DNA from: a bacterium
GTDB taxonomy: Bacteria > Armatimonadota > UBA5829
Direction of reading: 5' to 3'
Length of the DNA stretch: 48,741 bases
Assembly: GCA_021373255.1 (NCBI GenBank)
Contig: JAJFTD010000157.1
Span: 1 to 48,741 of the forward strand
The notes beneath the pieces are model-generated. The model did not search any database, had not been told where the DNA came from, and saw only the letters and a program-made list of their open reading frames with translations. The first letter of the stretch is position 1. Every line of letters begins with the position of its first letter. Below, piece by piece: positions 3,052-22,571 of the stretch. The translations under genes were made by a program, and so were the position numbers.

Positions 3052-6000
3052 TTAGTATCTGGTCACAGTGTCAACAGATATCACCTGCATGTATCTTTCT
3101 TTATTTTCACTGGTGCCAACAATGCCGGTCAGAGTGATTCGGTCACCTTCAAAAAGCCCGGTTGTGCCGATAACAAGAATGCCGGAAGACCTGTCCGGCT
3201 CCTCAATGTAGATGCTGCCGTCAGCGAAAGAATTAGATGCGACAGTAACCATCTTAGAAGAGGTCAGACTGACAACCTGATCATCAGCCATCGACTTGAT
3301 ATCGGAAATCCAATTAACACTATTAACCGAGAGGTTCATCGCATAATTCTGAACGGTTATCCCGCCACTCGCCACCCTCACGGGCTTCTGCTGAGATTGA
3401 ATACCTGCTTTGCTGACCCTAACTGAATAGTCACCGGCAGGTAAGACAAATGAGTAGACACCTTTGGCATTAGTCACAGTAGTAAACGAGCTGCCTAATG
3501 CCTCGACTGTTGCTCCGGCGACTCTCGGACTTCTAGAAGCATTTAGAGTAACTACGCCTGTGAGAGTAGTTACTTGAGAACCCTCCAGCGCGCCCCGGTC
3601 GGGAGCACTGCCCACGTAAGGCAGCCCAACATTCAATCCAGTGTCAATTCCAGGACTGCCAGCCTGCAATCGATAGTCACCATCTACCGGGTTCACAAAC
3701 AGAGGATCGACCTCTAGGTTCTTTGATCCCTGGCCACCAGCGTAACCGCCATAGTTGTAGGTGAATGTGCCGAACACGATGTTGTTCGAGTGCAGGAAGA
3801 AAACATTGTCGGAGTAGATGCCGCCTGTTGCCGTGCCAGAGTAGATGATATTGTTTCTAAACTCCACCGGGACATTGCCGGTGATGCTCAGGAACGCCCA
3901 GTCGGTAGCGCCGATTATGTCGTTGTTATAGAACTTGTCGCCACCAGTCGACGCCTCGTCCTGAATCCCCCGAACCGAGGATGCCTGCCGAGGGTCGATC
4001 ACGTTATTGTGGATACTGTTCTTGCTTGAGTTTTTAACGAGCATGCATGCGGCATTATGCGAGGGGTACATGCCTGATAAAGTGCAGTTCTTGATCTCAT
4101 TGCCCGTTGTCTTGTTCTCAAGCAACAAAACAGGAGCGCCTCCAATAATCTTAAAGCCGTCCAGAACGATGTATTTAGCCGCGCCATTGATATCCACAGC
4201 AGCTCCAGCGTTCGCGCCACGGTCGATGGTAACGTTGCCCTGTGCTGTGTATGTGATAGGGCTTGTTGAAATACCGCCGCAATTACGGAGAGACACACCG
4301 GCTTGTGTTTCGAAAGAGACGTCATAGGTTCCGGGCAGCACGATCACTTTATCACCCGGTGATAGCAAGCTGCATTTATCACCGTTGTCGATTGTCGCCC
4401 ACGCATGATCCTGGCTAAGGCCGGTATTCGCGTCACTGCCGGTCGGGCTTACATAATATGTCTTCGGTGTCGTGCTGCGAAGAACAAGATCCACGACAAT
4501 TCTGTCATCACTGACAGCGACAACACTCCTGCCTGCATTGTAGTGTCCCTGGCTGCTGGCTGTAAGAGTGTATGAACCAGCGCTCGCAGTGAGAGCATAC
4601 TCGCCATTGGCATCGGTGGTGGCTTGCGCAACCGACGTATTGAGGCTATTAAGGAGCTGCACAGTGGCATTAGCCAAAGGCAGATTGTTGTCGGCATCAG
4701 ATATTTTGCCATTTACGAAGCCTATGCTCGTGACAGGAGACCCTGTGCTCTCGAAAGCGCCACGGTCGGGCGCACTGCCCTGGTAGGACAACCCAACGGG
4801 CACGCCGCTGTCAATCGCAGAGCTTCCGATCTGCAGGTGATAGTCTCCGGCTTCGGCATTCGCAAACAGAGGAGCAATCTGTAGATTATCAGACCCCTGG
4901 CCCTCAGAATAACCGCCGTAGGGATACGTGAAGCTGCCGTATACAATATTGTTCGAATGCACAAACTGAGTGTTGTCGGAGTAGATACCGCCAAACGCTG
5001 TACCCGAAGATATGATGTTATTCCTGAACTCTACCGGCACATTGCCGCTTATGCTCAGGAACGCCCAGTCATTTGTGCCGATTATGGTGTTGTTATAGAA
5101 CTTGTCACCGCCGCTTGATGCCTCGCATTGAATACCGCGAGTCGGCGATGCCTGCTTTGAGTCGATCAAATTGTTGTGAATGCTGTTGCTGCCCGAATGT
5201 CTGATGAGCATGCAGGCGACATTAGGCGAGGGGTACATGCCTGATAAGGTGCAGTTCTTGATCTCGTTGCCAGTCGTATTGTTCTCAAGCAATACAATCG
5301 GAGCGCCTCCGGTTATCTTGAAGCCATCGAGGACAATGCACTTAGCCACGCCACTGATGTATACTGCTGCTCCGTTATAGGCCCCACGCGCGATGGTTAC
5401 ATCACCCTGAGCCACGTATTTGATGGGCTTTGCAGAAGTGCCGCTGCAGTTGCTGAGAGTCACACCGCCGGTGGAAACGTTATATGTTCCCGGCAGCACA
5501 ATTACCTTGTCACCAGGTTGTAGCAGATTCTTTTTATCGCCGTTGTCTATACTTGCCCACGCCTGAGTTATGCTAAGACCCGTGTTCGAGTCATTACCCG
5601 CCGGGCTGACATAGTATGTATTACATAACGCAATAATATCCGGGTTTATCGTAACCTCACCTGACGGTGGAATCGGCAAATCAAGTGTTCTTCCGGGCCA
5701 TTCGATGGTAACGTGAGTCTTGTAGGAAGTAATCTTTAACTTATGTCCACGAAATACCAGGCCATCTACACCGGCATACGTAAGCTCTGACGGCAGGTTG
5801 GGACGAATGTGCAAGCCTCCTGCATCCGCTCGAACACCTACGATACCATAGAGAAACGCGCACGAAGTTAATCCACTCTCAGGAAACTCTGCCCACACCC
5901 CCACAGATCCGACAGCAGTATGATTGTTGATCTCCCCACAATAAAACGGGTTGCCTCCCACCAGGTGGTCGGGCATATCGTATCGAGCAAGTATCTGTTT

Positions 6001-8112
6001 GAACCGCCCCCAGGCGTTATCGGCTCCTAAATAGCGGGCGCGAGACATTAATTCATAATATGCCGTCCACAAAATAGCGCCGCCATCCTCGCACCATTTA
6101 TCATATTCAAATTGATTTGCCTGGTCTGAGCAGTGGATTGTGTTGGACCGGGGAGCGAAAATCCAGCGTGAAAACGTATCTGCCAAACCGGACGGAGTCA
6201 CTGCGTTCTCCATCCAACTGTAAATCTGCTGTACTTGCTGCTGACTAGCCAGTCCATACGTCGCGGCAATGGTATTGACGTAAGTCATTCCCCAATCGTG
6301 TATCGCGCCGGTGGAGTCTACCCAGCTTATGTAGCGCCCCTTTGCGCTGTCCCAGAATGTTTGATTGAATTTTTGTATTGCCGTCACTGCAAGCTGCTCG
6401 AGCTGCGCAGCCCGCGCTTCATTGCCTGCCGCACGCTCAAGTTCGGCCGAGGCATGCAGAGTTGGAGCGAAGAATGCATTGATATATGCGTCACGATAAC
6501 CGCTGGGAATGCAGTCGAAATAGCCGCTGGCCCATGTAGTACCTGCGGGCACAGTAACACCCGTGTGCTGTGGACTATTAATGGTAAGCACCCCGGCCTG
6601 GCCATTCATGGAATTCAACAGATAATCTGTTGCCTTGCGCACGGTGCTGATATTTGCATCCAGGAACGTTTTGTCACCTGTCCAGGAGTAAACATCCCAG
6701 CACGCCAGCAGCCAGGGCGCATTGGAATCGTAGTGCCGGGTGTCGTATGCCAGTGCATCGGTGCCGTCCCAGCCACGTGATTCAGGCCTGCTCCATATAT
6801 AACCATCGGGGTCGACTCGGGCTGTGAAATACTGCAAGACCCCCAGGAACGAGTCGTGAATAGGGCCATCGACCCAGGACAGCTTCTGCGCATCGAACTC
6901 ATACGTAGACGGGCAGGAAGTGTGGCTGGTCAAAAACGTCAGCATAAAGCGGTTTAGGACGTCATTAGTCTGGCTGTCGGATGTGAAGAACTTTGGGAAA
7001 TAATGCGGCAGCACGTCAGTAGTTGGCAGCAGTTCGATTTTTGCGTCCGAATTAAGCAGAATCTGCATTCGATCCGGTTCCATGTATGCTTCAAACCATT
7101 GACGGTTGGGGTAAATCTTCAGATCGTATCCACCGGTCCCACGCAAACGCGCCCAATTGCATGCAGGCTGCAAGAAAATATCTGATTGGTTACGCTTGAA
7201 TGCCTCAACAGGCAGCCAGTAACCGCTATCAGTCGTAAGATAGCGGAAAGGAGTTACCGCCGGGTCTGTAGTATCGTATCCATCTTTCTGCCACGAGTAG
7301 TTAAGTGCTATTACGGGATTGAACCCACTTATCGCCTGCTCGCGAACAGTTAACTTGAACTGCAGGTCACGCCCAAGAGGTAATACCTGCCAATCGAGGA
7401 CTCCCACGTCAGCCAGGGTATAACCGAAGCCCCAATCCTTATTCGCATTCACCTGCCCTGAAGTGAATGCCGTGCCACCGGGATACGTGTCCGTGTTGCA
7501 ACCCCACCAATAGCAGTCCCCGACTTTATTTCCGATTTCGAGATAATATGTGCCCGGCGGGACTGGGTTTGCCAGTTCAAGATGCACTGCAGCCTGAACG
7601 GGCAGTGGCTGGATGAGGCGCGAGGCGACAATATCTCCACTGGGCCCGTCCTTGCGCAGGGTCATAGTCACTGAAGAGTTCTCAACTCCGGCGTTAGTGA
7701 GTGACGCCCAGACATCGTAAAGCCAACCGCCACCATCAGGCACAGTGAAGCTCTGACCTAGAGAACCACCATACGGCAGGTTTTCACCATGATCGAATGG
7801 TCCACCATAGCCGCCCGTAGCCGCACCTCGGATTATGTAATGGCTCCCACTGACCTGAATCCTGTCGGACTGCACAACCGCGGTACCGTTTGGAGCGGTC
7901 CCAACAGGGCCAATGCCCACAGGGTCCATGTTGTAGTTCGCTTCACCTGTCGGATCAAAGCGAACAGAGACCTGCTGGTTGTTGTCGACAGTCAGTTGGA
8001 AGTAGGAGTTTTCGACTACTCCAGGCGGGTTCTCTTGCCCGGAAACCATCGCCGCGCAACCCGCGATCATCAGGAGCACTAACCCAATTCTTATAGTCGG
8101 TGCGGTTATCAT
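3052..8112 (-). CDS. Lipoprotein: six-hairpin glycosidase fused to two beta-helix modules and a C-terminal beta domain
   Basis: A 1686-residue surface protein. It starts with a lipoprotein signal (hydrophobic run ending IAGC, lipidated Cys19). Residues about 30-300 form a beta-rich N-terminal region. About 340-815 look like an (alpha/alpha)6 six-hairpin glycosidase: repeated W-rich helices, GWDGTDAL, CWDVYSWTGDKTFLD, WCEDGGAILWTAYYELMSR, and a trailing GLHIRPNLPSEL strand as in GH65/GH78/GH94-like enzymes. Two parallel beta-helix modules follow (about 829-1215 and 1216-1515), each opening TYYVSPxGxDxNTGLS and each followed by a carboxypeptidase-regulatory-like Ig domain. The end (about 1600-1686) has an OB-like domain (FADGSIYIEEPDRSSGI). 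The ATG lies three bases after the arabinofuranosidase stop, with GGAG inside that gene, so translation is probably coupled. The paralog at 20040-22571 lacks everything after the glycosidase. Sugar specificity cannot be read from sequence. Confidence 0.86.
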   Translation of the reverse strand: MITAPTIRIGLVLLMIAGCAAMVSGQENPPGVVENSYFQLTVDNNQQVSVRFDPTGEANYNMDPVGIGPVGTAPNGTAVVQSDRIQVSGSHYIIRGAATGGYGGPFDHGENLPYGGSLGQSFTVPDGGGWLYDVWASLTNAGVENSSVTMTLRKDGPSGDIVASRLIQPLPVQAAVHLELANPVPPGTYYLEIGNKVGDCYWWGCNTDTYPGGTAFTSGQVNANKDWGFGYTLADVGVLDWQVLPLGRDLQFKLTVREQAISGFNPVIALNYSWQKDGYDTTDPAVTPFRYLTTDSGYWLPVEAFKRNQSDIFLQPACNWARLRGTGGYDLKIYPNRQWFEAYMEPDRMQILLNSDAKIELLPTTDVLPHYFPKFFTSDSQTNDVLNRFMLTFLTSHTSCPSTYEFDAQKLSWVDGPIHDSFLGVLQYFTARVDPDGYIWSRPESRGWDGTDALAYDTRHYDSNAPWLLACWDVYSWTGDKTFLDANISTVRKATDYLLNSMNGQAGVLTINSPQHTGVTVPAGTTWASGYFDCIPSGYRDAYINAFFAPTLHASAELERAAGNEARAAQLEQLAVTAIQKFNQTFWDSAKGRYISWVDSTGAIHDWGMTYVNTIAATYGLASQQQVQQIYSWMENAVTPSGLADTFSRWIFAPRSNTIHCSDQANQFEYDKWCEDGGAILWTAYYELMSRARYLGADNAWGRFKQILARYDMPDHLVGGNPFYCGEINNHTAVGSVGVWAEFPESGLTSCAFLYGIVGVRADAGGLHIRPNLPSELTYAGVDGLVFRGHKLKITSYKTHVTIEWPGRTLDLPIPPSGEVTINPDIIALCNTYYVSPAGNDSNTGLSITQAWASIDNGDKKNLLQPGDKVIVLPGTYNVSTGGVTLSNCSGTSAKPIKYVAQGDVTIARGAYNGAAVYISGVAKCIVLDGFKITGGAPIVLLENNTTGNEIKNCTLSGMYPSPNVACMLIRHSGSNSIHNNLIDSKQASPTRGIQCEASSGGDKFYNNTIIGTNDWAFLSISGNVPVEFRNNIISSGTAFGGIYSDNTQFVHSNNIVYGSFTYPYGGYSEGQGSDNLQIAPLFANAEAGDYHLQIGSSAIDSGVPVGLSYQGSAPDRGAFESTGSPVTSIGFVNGKISDADNNLPLANATVQLLNSLNTSVAQATTDANGEYALTASAGSYTLTASSQGHYNAGRSVVAVSDDRIVVDLVLRSTTPKTYYVSPTGSDANTGLSQDHAWATIDNGDKCSLLSPGDKVIVLPGTYDVSFETQAGVSLRNCGGISTSPITYTAQGNVTIDRGANAGAAVDINGAAKYIVLDGFKIIGGAPVLLLENKTTGNEIKNCTLSGMYPSHNAACMLVKNSSKNSIHNNVIDPRQASSVRGIQDEASTGGDKFYNNDIIGATDWAFLSITGNVPVEFRNNIIYSGTATGGIYSDNVFFLHSNNIVFGTFTYNYGGYAGGQGSKNLEVDPLFVNPVDGDYRLQAGSPGIDTGLNVGLPYVGSAPDRGALEGSQVTTLTGVVTLNASRSPRVAGATVEALGSSFTTVTNAKGVYSFVLPAGDYSVRVSKAGIQSQQKPVRVASGGITVQNYAMNLSVNSVNWISDIKSMADDQVVSLTSSKMVTVASNSFADGSIYIEEPDRSSGILVIGTTGLFEGDRITLTGIVGTSENKERYMQVISVDTVTRY

Positions 8113-17642: not shown

Positions 17643-19760
17643 TTGCACTTAATCAAGATTTCTGAGAACGGAATTAACCTGGTCATTGAGATTGCCGACT
17701 CAGGGAGCGTTAGTCTCCTTCACTTTTCGGCATTGCCTTTCCAAGAAGAATTGATTGATGAAAGGCACAAGAGTTTTTGCAGACTATTAGAGTTGCAGGT
17801 TACCGGCGAGAACCAAGGCGGTAACCACGGTGCAAAACATGCCAGTACTCAACCGGGCGGATGCCTGGTCTATACTGAGCACAAAGACTATCGAAACAGC
17901 CTGGGACGGAAGCTGGAACTTGTGCAACAATGCGAAGAGCTGAGGGTAACAAGCCACTTCCAGTTCTATGATAACATTCAGATAGCCCGATGTTGGACAG
18001 ATGTAACTAATATAGGTAACTCTCCGCTGGGCATGGAATACCTGACATCGTTTTCTCTTGGATGCCTGGCAAAAGAAGGTTTGTTGGGATGGCAGGATAA
18101 GTGCGCATTACACGTGCCTCACAGCACCTGGTTTGGTGAGATCAGGTGGGCTCAATCGAGCCTGCCTGAGCTTGGCATGTATCCCGTTACACCCACAACA
18201 TTCCCCCTCACACCCGGAACAGTGAAAAGGCTTTCGTATTGTGTCAATGGAACATGGTCGTGCAACGACTTCCTCCCGATGGGGGCTTTCGAGAACACCG
18301 AAGCCCATACCACGCTGTTCTGGCAGATCGATCATGATGGCTCTTGGCAATGGGAAATCGGTGGCTGTGCAGACGATTTGTATCTCAAAGTAAGCGGCCC
18401 GAATGAAAACGAGAACCATTGGTGGAAGAGCCTGGCTCCTGGCGAGAGCTTCGTGTCGGTGCCCGTGGCGGTTGGATCGATTGTGGGAGAAATCACCGAG
18501 GCTGCGTGTGAGCTGGTGAAATACCGCCGGGCTATCCGCCGTGCGAATAAAGACAATGAAAATCTGCCGGTTATCTTCAACGACTACATGAATTGCCTCT
18601 GGGCTGATCCGACTACTGAGAAAGAAATCCCTCTGGTTGATGCTGCCGCTGAGGTAGGATGCGAGTACTATTGCATTGATGCCGGATGGCATGGAGGCAT
18701 AAATAAGTCGTGGTCAGAGGAATTAGGCGAATGGCTGCCGTCATCTGAGCGCTTCCCCAATGGGATCGGTGAGATTCTTGATTACATCAGAAGCAAGAGA
18801 ATGACTCCCGGCCTTTGGCTGGAATTGGAAGTAATGGGCCCCAATTGTCCTTTGGCTAGCAAGGTTCCTGACGATTGGTTCTTTGTGCGTCACGGCAAGC
18901 GCATAATAGACAATGGCCGCTATCAACTGGACTATCGCAATCCCGAGGTCCGCGCTCACGCGGACTCTGTAGTCGACCGTCTCGTAAATGAATACGGCGT
19001 CGGCTATATCAAGATGGATTACAATATGAACGCCGGTATAGGCACTGAGATAGATGCCGACAGCTTCGGCGATGGATTGCTTGGGCACAATAGAGCTTAT
19101 ATAGACTGGCTGGACAAAGTATTCAAACGCCACCCTGACCTTGTAATAGAAAATTGCGCCAGTGGCGGCCTGCGAATGAATTACGCTCTGCTGAGCAGGC
19201 TCAGCATCCAGTCAAGCAGCGATCAGACCGACTACCGTAAGTATGCTGCGATTGCCGCAGCCTCCCCGACCGCATGCACTCCCGAGCAGTGCGCAGTATG
19301 GTCTTACCCGCTCAAAGATGGGAATGCCGAAGAAGCTGCGTTCAACATGGTCAACGCGATGCTGCAGCGAATCCACCTGAGCGGGCAGCTTTCCCAGATC
19401 AGCCCCGAGAACAAGGCTCTAGTCAGCGAAGGCTTGGCTTATTATAAGAGCATTCGCGGTGATCTTAAGCACGCGTTTCCCTTCTGGCCGCTCGGTCTAC
19501 CATTGATGGAACACGGGTGGATCAGCCTCGCACAGCAGTGTGGTAATCGTACACATCTCGCAGTATGGCGAACCAACAGCGCCGAAGAGACATGCGTGTT
19601 GCCAATGGAGAGATTTAAGGGGAAATCAGTTAAAGTCACTCTCGGATACCCATGCAGTGCCGAATGTTCGTGGCAATGGAACACCGAGGCGGGAATCCTA
19701 AGTGTTCAACTGCCGAAACAATATTCGGCAAGGGTATTCAAGCTGGAGTGTGCGGATTAA
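17643..19760 (+). CDS. Alpha-galactosidase, GH36 type
   Basis: A 705-residue retaining alpha-galactosidase that releases terminal alpha-galactose from oligosaccharides or galactomannan side chains. The N-terminal beta-supersandwich (about 1-300) is followed by the barrel: VIFNDYMNCLWADP, YYCIDAGWHG, TPGLWLELEVMGPN, then YIKMDYN with nucleophile Asp459, ENCASGGLRMNYALLSR, and SSSDQTDYR with acid/base Asp527. The 68-residue spacing fits long GH36 enzymes. A C-terminal beta domain closes the protein. There is no signal peptide, so it should act in the cytoplasm on imported oligosaccharides. The start is TTG with GAGG five bases upstream; no ATG lies close to the conserved N-terminus. It is the last gene of the plus-strand regulator operon. 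Confidence 0.93.
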   Translation: MHLIKISENGINLVIEIADSGSVSLLHFSALPFQEELIDERHKSFCRLLELQVTGENQGGNHGAKHASTQPGGCLVYTEHKDYRNSLGRKLELVQQCEELRVTSHFQFYDNIQIARCWTDVTNIGNSPLGMEYLTSFSLGCLAKEGLLGWQDKCALHVPHSTWFGEIRWAQSSLPELGMYPVTPTTFPLTPGTVKRLSYCVNGTWSCNDFLPMGAFENTEAHTTLFWQIDHDGSWQWEIGGCADDLYLKVSGPNENENHWWKSLAPGESFVSVPVAVGSIVGEITEAACELVKYRRAIRRANKDNENLPVIFNDYMNCLWADPTTEKEIPLVDAAAEVGCEYYCIDAGWHGGINKSWSEELGEWLPSSERFPNGIGEILDYIRSKRMTPGLWLELEVMGPNCPLASKVPDDWFFVRHGKRIIDNGRYQLDYRNPEVRAHADSVVDRLVNEYGVGYIKMDYNMNAGIGTEIDADSFGDGLLGHNRAYIDWLDKVFKRHPDLVIENCASGGLRMNYALLSRLSIQSSSDQTDYRKYAAIAAASPTACTPEQCAVWSYPLKDGNAEEAAFNMVNAMLQRIHLSGQLSQISPENKALVSEGLAYYKSIRGDLKHAFPFWPLGLPLMEHGWISLAQQCGNRTHLAVWRTNSAEETCVLPMERFKGKSVKVTLGYPCSAECSWQWNTEAGILSVQLPKQYSARVFKLECAD

Positions 19761-19817
19761 CCGCGTTATTCATAATCCGGGCCGGGATTAGGATTAACAT
19801 ATAATCCCACACTAGAT

Positions 19818-19862
19818 GGCCTGCTATTCCGATTCGTCGCGTGCGTATCAGAATAGCAGGCC
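19818..19862. terminator. Bidirectional terminator hairpin between converging alpha-galactosidase and six-hairpin glycosidase genes
   Basis: GGCCTGCTATTC (19818-19829) pairs perfectly with GAATAGCAGGCC (19851-19862) over 12 bp around a 21-base loop that can itself add a few pairs. TTATTTGTATT follows on the plus strand, as for a Rho-independent terminator of the alpha-galactosidase operon. Confidence 0.65.
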
Positions 19863-19883
19863 TTATTTGTATTCTCTCGATTG

Positions 19884-20010
19884 GAGGCGATCTCCGAATC
19901 GCCTCGCCAAAGCCAATGCCGGATCTCCGAATCCGGCTTCTTCGGCACAGGTTATGGGGTTCGGAAACCCCATTCTTGGCCTTGAGGTGGCGATTCGGAG
20001 ATCGCCACCT
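19884..20010. repeat. Cluster of four short hairpins with conserved loops and differing stems
   Basis: Four consecutive perfect stem-loops: GAGGCGAT-CTCCGA-ATCGCCTC (19884-19905); GCCGGAT-CTCCGA-ATCCGGC (19918-19937); ATGGGGTT-CGGA-AACCCCAT (19954-19973); AGGTGGCGAT-TCGGAG-ATCGCCACCT (19985-20010). Loops one and two are identical, loop four is their reverse complement and loop three is a shortened TCGGA form, while the stem sequences differ and both arms always change together. They fill most of the gap between two converging operons. They resemble repetitive extragenic palindromes but conserve the loop rather than the stem. No gene fits here. Confidence 0.75.
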
Positions 20011-20039
20011 ATCAGGGTAATTGCACAACTGCATAGTAT

Positions 20040-22571
20040 CTAGTGATGCTTGAGGGTATCTGCCGTCAATGTGACTTCCCCACCGGGTGGAACTGGCAGA
20101 TCAAGTTGCTTGCCTGACCATTCTACTTTTACGTGAGTCGGGAATGAAGTGATCTTCAACTTGTGCCCGCGATACATCAGGCCATCTACACCTGCGTATT
20201 TGATCTCGGACGGCAGACTGGGATGAATATGCAAACCCTCTGCATCCGCCCGAGCGCCTACGATGCCATAGAGAAATGCACAGGGAACCAGGCCGCTCTC
20301 AGGAAACTCTCCCCAAACTCCAACAGCTCCGGGGCCATATGTGCCATCACCGCGGTTGTCTATCTCTCCCTTATATAGCGGGTTACCTCCCACGAGGTGA
20401 TCAGGCATATCATATCGATTGAGTATCTGTTTGAAGCGCGCCCAGGCATTGTCGGGCCCAAAGTAGCGAGCTCGAGACATTAGCTCATAATATGCTGTCC
20501 ACAAGATGGCGCCACCGTCTTCGCACCATTCATCGTATTTGTAATTGTTGGCCTGATCTGAGCAGTGACTTGTGTTGGATCGGGGTGCAAAGACCCAGCG
20601 AGTGAACGTATCCGGCACGCCCGAGGCAGTCGGTTCAGTTTCCATCCAATCATACATTCGGTTAGCTTGCTGCTGATCCGCCAGCCCGTATGTCGCGGCA
20701 ATGGTATTGACGTAAGTCATTCCCCAGTCGTGTTTTGCACCAGTCGAATCTATCCAGCTTATATAGCGTCCTTTATCATCGTCCCAGAATGTTTTGTTAA
20801 ATTGCTCTTTTGCAACAACGGCGATTTTCTCCAACTCGGCAGCCCGCGCTTCATTACCGGCTGCGCGTTCGAGCCCCGCCGAGGCGCGTAGAGCCGGAGC
20901 ATAGAACGCATTGATATACGCAACACGGTAACCGGCGGGGATGCAGTCGAAGTAGCAGCTTGACCATGAGGTGCCTTTGGGCACACAAACACCCGTGTGT
21001 TGAGGACTGTTGATAGTAAGTATCCCACTCCGACCATCCATTGAATTCAACAGAAAATCAGTCGCCTTACGCACGGTAGGAGAAACGCTATCAAGAAACG
21101 CCTTATCGCCCGTCCACGAGTAAATGTCCCAACAAGCCAGCAGCCAATTGACATTGGGATCAAAATGCCGGTGGTCGATTGTCAGGGAGTCGGTGCCATC
21201 CCATCCACGGGAATTTGGCCTGCTCCAAATGTATCCATCCTCATCAACTCGATTAGTGAAGAACTTTACAACGTTCTCAAATGAGTCGTGGATAGGCCCA
21301 CCAACCCAAGCCAGCTTCAATGCATCGAACTCATAAGTCGATGGACAAGACGTGTGCCTGAACATAAAGGTCAGCATAAAGCGGTTCAATACATCGTTGG
21401 TTTTAGCATCTGATGTAAAGAACCTTGGGAAATAATCGGGAAGAACATCGCTGGTCGGGAGCACCTCGATACGAGAATCCTGGCCAAGCAGAATGTTCAT
21501 TTGGTCTGATTTCATATTGGCATCAAACAGCTTACGATTGTGTTCGATCTTCAAGTCGTATCCCCTGGTTCCACGCAGCCGCGCCCAGTTGCAATCCGGT
21601 CGCAAAACCCAATACGACTCCATTCGCTTGAATGCCTCAACAGGCATCCAATAGCCGCTATCAGTCGTCAAATACTTGAAAGGAGTAAAAGCCGGATTGG
21701 AAGTATCGAACCCTTCCAGCCGCCACGGCAGACTGATAGCCAACGCGGGAGTAAACCCTTTTACTGCTTGTTCGCGAACAGTGAAACTGAAACGCAGATC
21801 ACGGTTTGCAAGACGCACGTCCCAGTCGATGACCCCAACATCAGCAAGACTATAACCAAAAACGAAGTCCTTATCCGCACGGGCCTGTCCTGAAATAAAC
21901 CCCGTGCCGCCAGGATACGCATCCTTGTTACAGCCCCACCAATATGCGCAACCGCGCCTGTCCTTTATTTCAAGGTAAAACACACCGGGAGGAACCGGCT
22001 TCGACAAAGTGAGATGCATCGATGCTTCATTAGCCAGCGGACGCACATCACGAGAGGCGATAACCTGCCCGGTAGGGCCATTTTTACGCAGGACCATGGT
22101 CACCGAAGAGTTCTTGACTCCACTGCACGTGAGAAACGCCGAGACATCGCAGAGCCATCCGCCGCCCTCAGGCACAGTAAATTGCTGTCCAAGTGATCCA
22201 CCAAACGGCAGCTCTTCCCCGTGATCGAATACACCGTCGTATCCGCCTCTCGCTGCCCCCGGAAACACGTAGCGACTTCCTTTAACCCGAATCATTCCCG
22301 GTTCAATGACCGCAGTGCCATTCGCCGTAACTCCAACCGGACCGATTTTGACAGGATTTAGCTTGTATTTGGCTTTGCCGGTCGGGTCAAAAGCGGCAAG
22401 GACTTGTTTGTTACTATCAACAGTCAGCCTGAAGTATGGGTTTTCGACGCGTTTAGGCTGATTTATCTGTTTAGCAGCTAAAGCTGCTACGGATTGCTGC
22501 CCACAACCCGCGAGTATCAGTAATGCCAGGCAAACTCTGCTGCAGCGAGTTATTGTAGATGCGATTACCAT
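20040..22571 (-). CDS. Six-hairpin glycosidase lipoprotein, stand-alone paralog
   Basis: An 843-residue paralog of the first 830 residues of the protein at 3052-8112. A lipoprotein signal ends LAGC (lipidated Cys23), so it is anchored in a membrane. The beta-rich N-terminal region (FRLTVDSNKQVLAAFDPTGK; FGGSLGQQFTVPEGGGW) leads into an (alpha/alpha)6-type catalytic region (SRGWDGTDSL, CWDIYSWTGDKAFLD, WCEDGGAILWTAYYELMSR, DMPDHLVGGNPLY) and ends in a GLHIHPSLPSEI strand. The exact GH family and substrate cannot be fixed from sequence; GH78-, GH65- and GH94-like enzymes share the fold. The ATG is three bases after the GH2 stop, with AAAGGAG inside the GH2 gene, so the two are translationally coupled. 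The same arrangement and spacing occur in the other operon. Confidence 0.86.
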   Translation of the reverse strand: MVIASTITRCSRVCLALLILAGCGQQSVAALAAKQINQPKRVENPYFRLTVDSNKQVLAAFDPTGKAKYKLNPVKIGPVGVTANGTAVIEPGMIRVKGSRYVFPGAARGGYDGVFDHGEELPFGGSLGQQFTVPEGGGWLCDVSAFLTCSGVKNSSVTMVLRKNGPTGQVIASRDVRPLANEASMHLTLSKPVPPGVFYLEIKDRRGCAYWWGCNKDAYPGGTGFISGQARADKDFVFGYSLADVGVIDWDVRLANRDLRFSFTVREQAVKGFTPALAISLPWRLEGFDTSNPAFTPFKYLTTDSGYWMPVEAFKRMESYWVLRPDCNWARLRGTRGYDLKIEHNRKLFDANMKSDQMNILLGQDSRIEVLPTSDVLPDYFPRFFTSDAKTNDVLNRFMLTFMFRHTSCPSTYEFDALKLAWVGGPIHDSFENVVKFFTNRVDEDGYIWSRPNSRGWDGTDSLTIDHRHFDPNVNWLLACWDIYSWTGDKAFLDSVSPTVRKATDFLLNSMDGRSGILTINSPQHTGVCVPKGTSWSSCYFDCIPAGYRVAYINAFYAPALRASAGLERAAGNEARAAELEKIAVVAKEQFNKTFWDDDKGRYISWIDSTGAKHDWGMTYVNTIAATYGLADQQQANRMYDWMETEPTASGVPDTFTRWVFAPRSNTSHCSDQANNYKYDEWCEDGGAILWTAYYELMSRARYFGPDNAWARFKQILNRYDMPDHLVGGNPLYKGEIDNRGDGTYGPGAVGVWGEFPESGLVPCAFLYGIVGARADAEGLHIHPSLPSEIKYAGVDGLMYRGHKLKITSFPTHVKVEWSGKQLDLPVPPGGEVTLTADTLKHH

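Follow-up and report, generated by a model that had tools for sequence, protein, structure and literature searches.

Most of what is known of REP elements and their domesticated transposases comes from the GTAG-tagged systems of Proteobacteria. The REP, BIME and REPIN repeats that accompany TnpAREP (RAYT) enzymes, as in Escherichia coli and Pseudomonas, are short extragenic palindromes, present in many copies, arranged in inverted pairs and found around RAYT genes. Loop recognition has a precedent in these enzymes: group 3 TnpAREP cannot do without unique loop bases, nor the E. coli enzyme without a bulge (PMC8266576). RAYTs of subclass 2.6 (group 5), mostly from Bacteroidetes, are flanked by 'atypical secondary structures'; the part of that article's text on which we draw neither describes these structures nor mentions Armatimonadetes (PMC6006769). 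Here we describe a hairpin cluster from an Armatimonadota genome that is probably a non-autonomous mobile element of the REP/BIME type, without the GTAG tag and recognized through its apical loop. Our literature search found no paper describing its CTCCGA hairpin motif.

The cluster lies between two converging genes in the window, the stretch of 48,741 nucleotides analysed here. An earlier note had reported four hairpins at 19884–20010 with a shared CTCCGA-type loop and stems that vary with compensation. All four are present there, although that span is slightly short of the repeated unit, which occupies 137 bp (19878–20014, no strand assigned), begins with CGAT (left consensus TGAT), ends with ATCA and consists of an inverted pair of two-hairpin modules. 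These boundaries are given by covariance model matches at 19878–19907 (+ strand) and 19985–20014 (− strand), and are shared by the copies on contigs C105, C26 and C61. The outer left hairpin, H1 (19884–19905, +), has an 8-bp stem, GAGGCGAT-CTCCGA-ATCGCCTC, and the inner left hairpin, H2 (19918–19937, +), a partial model match, has a 7-bp stem, GCCGGAT-CTCCGA-ATCCGGC. Beyond a central linker between the inverted modules (19938–19953), the inner right hairpin, H3 (19954–19973, −), pairs 8 bp around CGGA and reads ATGGGGT-TTCCGA-ACCCCAT on the − strand, whereas other copies have CTCCGA at this position. The outer right hairpin, H4 (19985–20010, −; 52.2 bits), has a 10-bp stem, AGGTGGCGAT-CTCCGA-ATCGCCACCT on the − strand, its loop appearing on the + strand as the complement, TCGGAG. 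The four stems (GAGGCGAT, GCCGGAT, ATGGGGT and AGGTGGCGAT) differ from one another, with the arms matched in each. Like the palindromes of REP/BIME elements, which fold as single strands, they are perfect over 7–10 bp, and the DNA fold z-score is −7.2.

In the ORF list, the left neighbour of the element is a 705-aa frame (17643–19760, +), presumably an alpha-galactosidase-type glycosidase judging by eye, that ends 118 bp before it; the convergent right neighbour is an 843-aa frame (20040–22571, −) with its stop codon 26 bp after it. The − strand frames at 5635–8094 and 20043–22568, the latter being this 843-aa neighbour, are paralogues with 69% identity, and neither has an ortholog among the other members of the genus. 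Separately from the element, a 12-bp inverted repeat with a 21-nt loop (GGCCTGCTATTC...GAATAGCAGGCC), followed by TTATTTGTATT, lies at 19818–19862 and is a possible terminator of the + strand gene.

The combination of a fixed loop and a free stem holds well beyond this locus. Among contexts chosen on the 8-mer TCTCCGAA alone, the next four positions are paired in 83 of 106, compared with 0 of 14 for scrambled 8-mers. In an alignment of 31 distinct outer hairpins, 95% of the stem cells are paired and the loop columns are nearly invariant, a conservation that is partly by construction because the rows were picked by the loop motif; independent evidence comes from the stems, every variant of which encloses the same loop. 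Seven of the 11 stem pairs in this alignment show changes on both sides. Double changes number 46, where shuffles give 14.5 ± 4.1, and the covariation score, with G-U pairs allowed, is 0.405, compared with 0.174 ± 0.019 for shuffles and no more than 0.123 for slid controls. The related idea that ordinary REPs conserve the stem was put too strongly, because compensated stem variation is also known from published REP families (PMC3733652). We favour reading the apex as a TCC triloop with a closing C-G pair and, after it, an unpaired 3' A (C-TCC-G-A), since related RAYTs of the genus are accompanied by GGGATC-TCC-GATCCC, a TCC triloop without the extra A, and those of Verrucomicrobiota by GGCGGA-CTCCGA-TCCGCC.

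Chance can be set aside with near certainty as the origin of such a cluster. The real window carries CTCCGA or TCGGAG three times and TCGGAA once on stems of at least 7 bp, and none of 60 dinucleotide-preserving shuffles of the window placed one 6-nt loop (or its complement) twice on such stems. A local accident was to be concluded if the genome held no other copies and relatives had none, and the searches clearly gave the opposite result: the element is multi-copy both in its own genome and in relatives. The sequence GATCTCCGAATC occurs 19 times in the 4.19-Mb own genome and its backwards control not at all, and BLAST with the window element recovers near full-length copies on C105, C26 and C61 at 95–96% identity, along with several partial ones. 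The flanks of these three copies are unrelated and similarity ends at the element ends. Exact matches in Nocardia, Sphingomonas, Corallococcus and similar genomes are without the surrounding repeat anatomy and are probably chance occurrences in coding DNA.

The repeated unit has a modular structure. A module of about 59 nt comprises an outer hairpin with the foot TGAT and an inner hairpin, and the full element is two such modules inverted, the inverted-pair arrangement of REP/BIME repeats. Modules also occur alone (L034, L035, L227 and L234), as do outer hairpins (L228 and L208), giving recurring units of 135, 59 and 31 bp with sharp ends. The suggestion of a mobile family that inserts into or copies hairpin loops is borne out as to mobility, the moving unit being of one of these three lengths. 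In two chimeric copies in genome G004 (L204 and L207), a single CTCCGA loop connects the 5' arm of H1 with the 3' arm of H2, which is what a deletion from one loop to the other would leave. At L031 on C61 of the own genome (approximately 1628–1846), the H1 loop is interrupted by another repeat, about 220 bp long (TAATGTTGTCG...CGACAACTAT), with GATCTCCGAAT repeated on both sides; on contigs C80, C5 and C175 this inserted repeat adjoins the motif at contig ends, and its GCTTCGG...CCGAAGC core resembles the hairpins around RAYTs L183 and L190.

Sister species keep the 135–136-bp design with different stems. Genome G015 shares an identical stretch of 450 bases with the public Armatimonadetes MAG NC_groundwater_630, which puts the window in Armatimonadota. 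The outer-hairpin covariance model finds 13 matches in the own genome; 0, 20, 23 and 52 in genus members G001, G002, G003 and G004, respectively; 18 in G011; and 13–45 in three genomes of the same order, in which outer hairpins are patchily scattered and several relatives have none. Such patchiness is more easily reconciled with a mobile element than with a host function. It bears directly on the proposal that a host protein binds the loop or the cruciform and that copies are kept for chromosome organization, a proposal with a parallel in published REPs that bind IHF, DNA polymerase I and gyrase (PMC6006769) but one that accommodates poorly a range from 0 to 52 copies within one genus, and which we consider very unlikely.

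Copies in the own genome are intergenic, apart from an isolated 12-mer in L001 and an uncertain overlap with a long ORF at C61, and thus are repeated and extragenic in the manner of REP/BIME elements. They often lie just beyond a stop codon, as do the window copy and a module on C120 (11 bp). Such positions, together with the G-U pairs allowed in the covariation, would suit hairpins acting in the transcripts of converging genes as terminators, stabilizers or protein-binding loops, with copies spreading because they are useful at gene ends. We regard this RNA-level explanation as unlikely, given that both hairpin orientations occur, that the hairpins flank RAYT genes, that Rfam yields no match up to an E value of 1 in window positions 19000–21000 and that no T-tract terminator was found beyond chance in our scan. 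That scan, for a G+C stem followed by a T run, returned one weak match against 0.3 ± 0.6 in shuffles. The orthologs of the C120 neighbour gene are also without the module; at 58–60% protein identity, these loci have diverged too far for an empty site to be defined to the base. Nor did the search for an empty site succeed at the window locus, where the gene next to the element is without orthologs elsewhere in the genus.

In G004, two copies (L211 and L220) lie within a 223-bp unit in which the 135-bp element is enclosed by both terminal inverted repeats GGGC(G/T)AACGCACGA, and several further copies have one such terminal repeat; another mover may therefore have carried some copies. As a general account, in which all copies spread as cargo of another mobile element such as this unit, we consider this improbable: the window copy and those at C26, L203 and L227 lack these repeats, yet the 135-, 59- and 31-bp units are sharp-ended.

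In G003, which belongs to the same genus, a 179-aa gene (L172:1200–1739) sits exactly between H1–H2 and the inverted H3–H4, in the place of the central linker of the window copy, so that copies flank a RAYT gene as REP/BIME elements do. The tyrosine-type REP transposase for which the earlier note advised a search exists in this sister species, and the idea of selection on structure or a mobile family is sustained by the covariation, by the dispersal of units into unrelated flanks and by this RAYT between the same modules. The L172 protein scores 104.3 bits against NF047646 (REP_Tyr_transpos; cut-off, 80) and only 19.9 bits against the IS200/IS605 transposase model NF033573 (cut-off, 55). It carries the motifs PTHVHAII (HUH) and YIHDNP (tyrosine), and the only relative found with a solved structure is TnpArep 4er8 (E = 9.5e-7). 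A 37-bp direct repeat with 89% identity (L172:1072–1108 and 1810–1845) surrounds the RAYT-bearing element.

In a search of 291 Armatimonadota genomes, this is the only RAYT found with CTCCGA hairpins on its flanks, with none found in the own genome, and G011 has no Y1 transposase match despite its 18 hairpins; the window copy may be a relic or may have been moved in trans. Of the Pfam Y1_Tnp matches in the own genome, those inspected have other hairpin families around them or are broken, and none of these has CTCCGA loops. Four RAYTs there (L194, L197, L201 and L183, on contigs C124, C174, C82 and C118) each have a hairpin family of their own: GGGATC-TCC-GATCCC, GTGGATC-TGC-GATCCA, GTTTCGGGAAACCC... 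and GCTTCGG..., respectively.

Related arrangements recur around other RAYTs. Other close RAYTs of the genus stand between inverted sets of an outer and an inner hairpin whose loops are related, and some have other hairpin families. In Verrucomicrobiota, RAYTs near L127 are bracketed by CTCCGA hairpins with the foot CAAGGAG, and more distant ones have TCC, TCT, TTCC or CTCC loops around the gene; in one Chitinophagaceae genome, four Bacteroidota RAYTs are likewise accompanied by inverted modules of two hairpins, whose loops are TCC/TCT or related. By a scripted count, 20 of 41 RAYT loci, gathered with two related queries and hence non-independent, have a TCC/TCT hairpin ahead of the gene and the inverse of it behind, compared with 4 of 2,000 control positions. 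The hairpin loops track the RAYT phylogeny. In the RAYT tree, the Verrucomicrobiota CTCCGA group forms one clade (SH-aLRT, 98) far from L172, so that the hexamer common to them must be of great age or a product of convergence. The Verrucomicrobiota MAG JB025 contains many copies of a longer repeat, CAAGGAGCGGCGATCTCCGAATCGCCGA(A)CCCCACCAGCCC..., seen at the loci L069, L088 and L134.

On this basis, we propose a mechanism for the element. In single-stranded DNA, such as that of the lagging strand, each module would fold into hairpins with the apex C-TCC-G-A; a RAYT, as a HUH enzyme of the single-strand type, would bind this apex, cut near the foot and move or copy the unit into extragenic DNA. 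If the protein reads the apex, the loop would stay fixed while the stem drifts with compensation. Loop binding, cleavage and mobilization, and the role of this RAYT type as the mover of the window copy, are inferred, by analogy with described RAYTs (PMC8266576). More tentatively, and with somewhat less than even confidence, we suggest that one class of non-GTAG RAYTs reads C-TCC-G-A as a loop code. This code would have been retained, or have arisen anew, in two or more deeply split RAYT lineages, those of Armatimonadota and of Verrucomicrobiota, and the TCC/TCT loops of Bacteroidota would be related to it; these REPs would be addressed by their loop, and their stems could change freely. A REP family that is addressed by its loop and brackets its transposase, and that extends over three phyla, could supply a sequence rule for the 'atypical' structures of other RAYT groups, and the element family offers ready substrates with which to test the choice of DNA by these enzymes.

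Compared with known systems, the element shares with REP, BIME and REPIN repeats their extragenic, multi-copy palindromes, but differs in its foot, its unit and its abundance. The 5' GTAG/GTGG tetranucleotide is absent from the copies compared, the outer foot being TGAT in most copies here and GGAG in Verrucomicrobiota; the apex is fixed and the stems are free in a unit that is a two-hairpin module; and the copy number is 13–52, where more than 100 is usual. Short conserved loops on compensated stems are also features of the GTAG- and CGTC-tagged REP superfamilies (PMC3733652), but their tag is absent here. Class 3 HuH proteins, with their CnGA-footed structures, likewise have non-GTAG repeated hairpins around a HuH gene, but differ in foot and in tyrosine motif, Y----Q in place of YIHDNP (PMC6006769). 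A further likeness is to RAYT subclass 2.6 (group 5), to which L172 is assigned by resemblance only, having a similar length and a YIH-NP motif, and to which the Chitinophagaceae RAYTs with their two-hairpin modules and TCC/TCT loops also correspond; the element is probably related to the 'atypical' structures of that subclass (PMC6006769). The element behaves as a REP/BIME repeat does. By its tag, it stands outside the GTAG superfamily; its anatomy and its association with RAYTs make it a REP variant of the non-GTAG kind.
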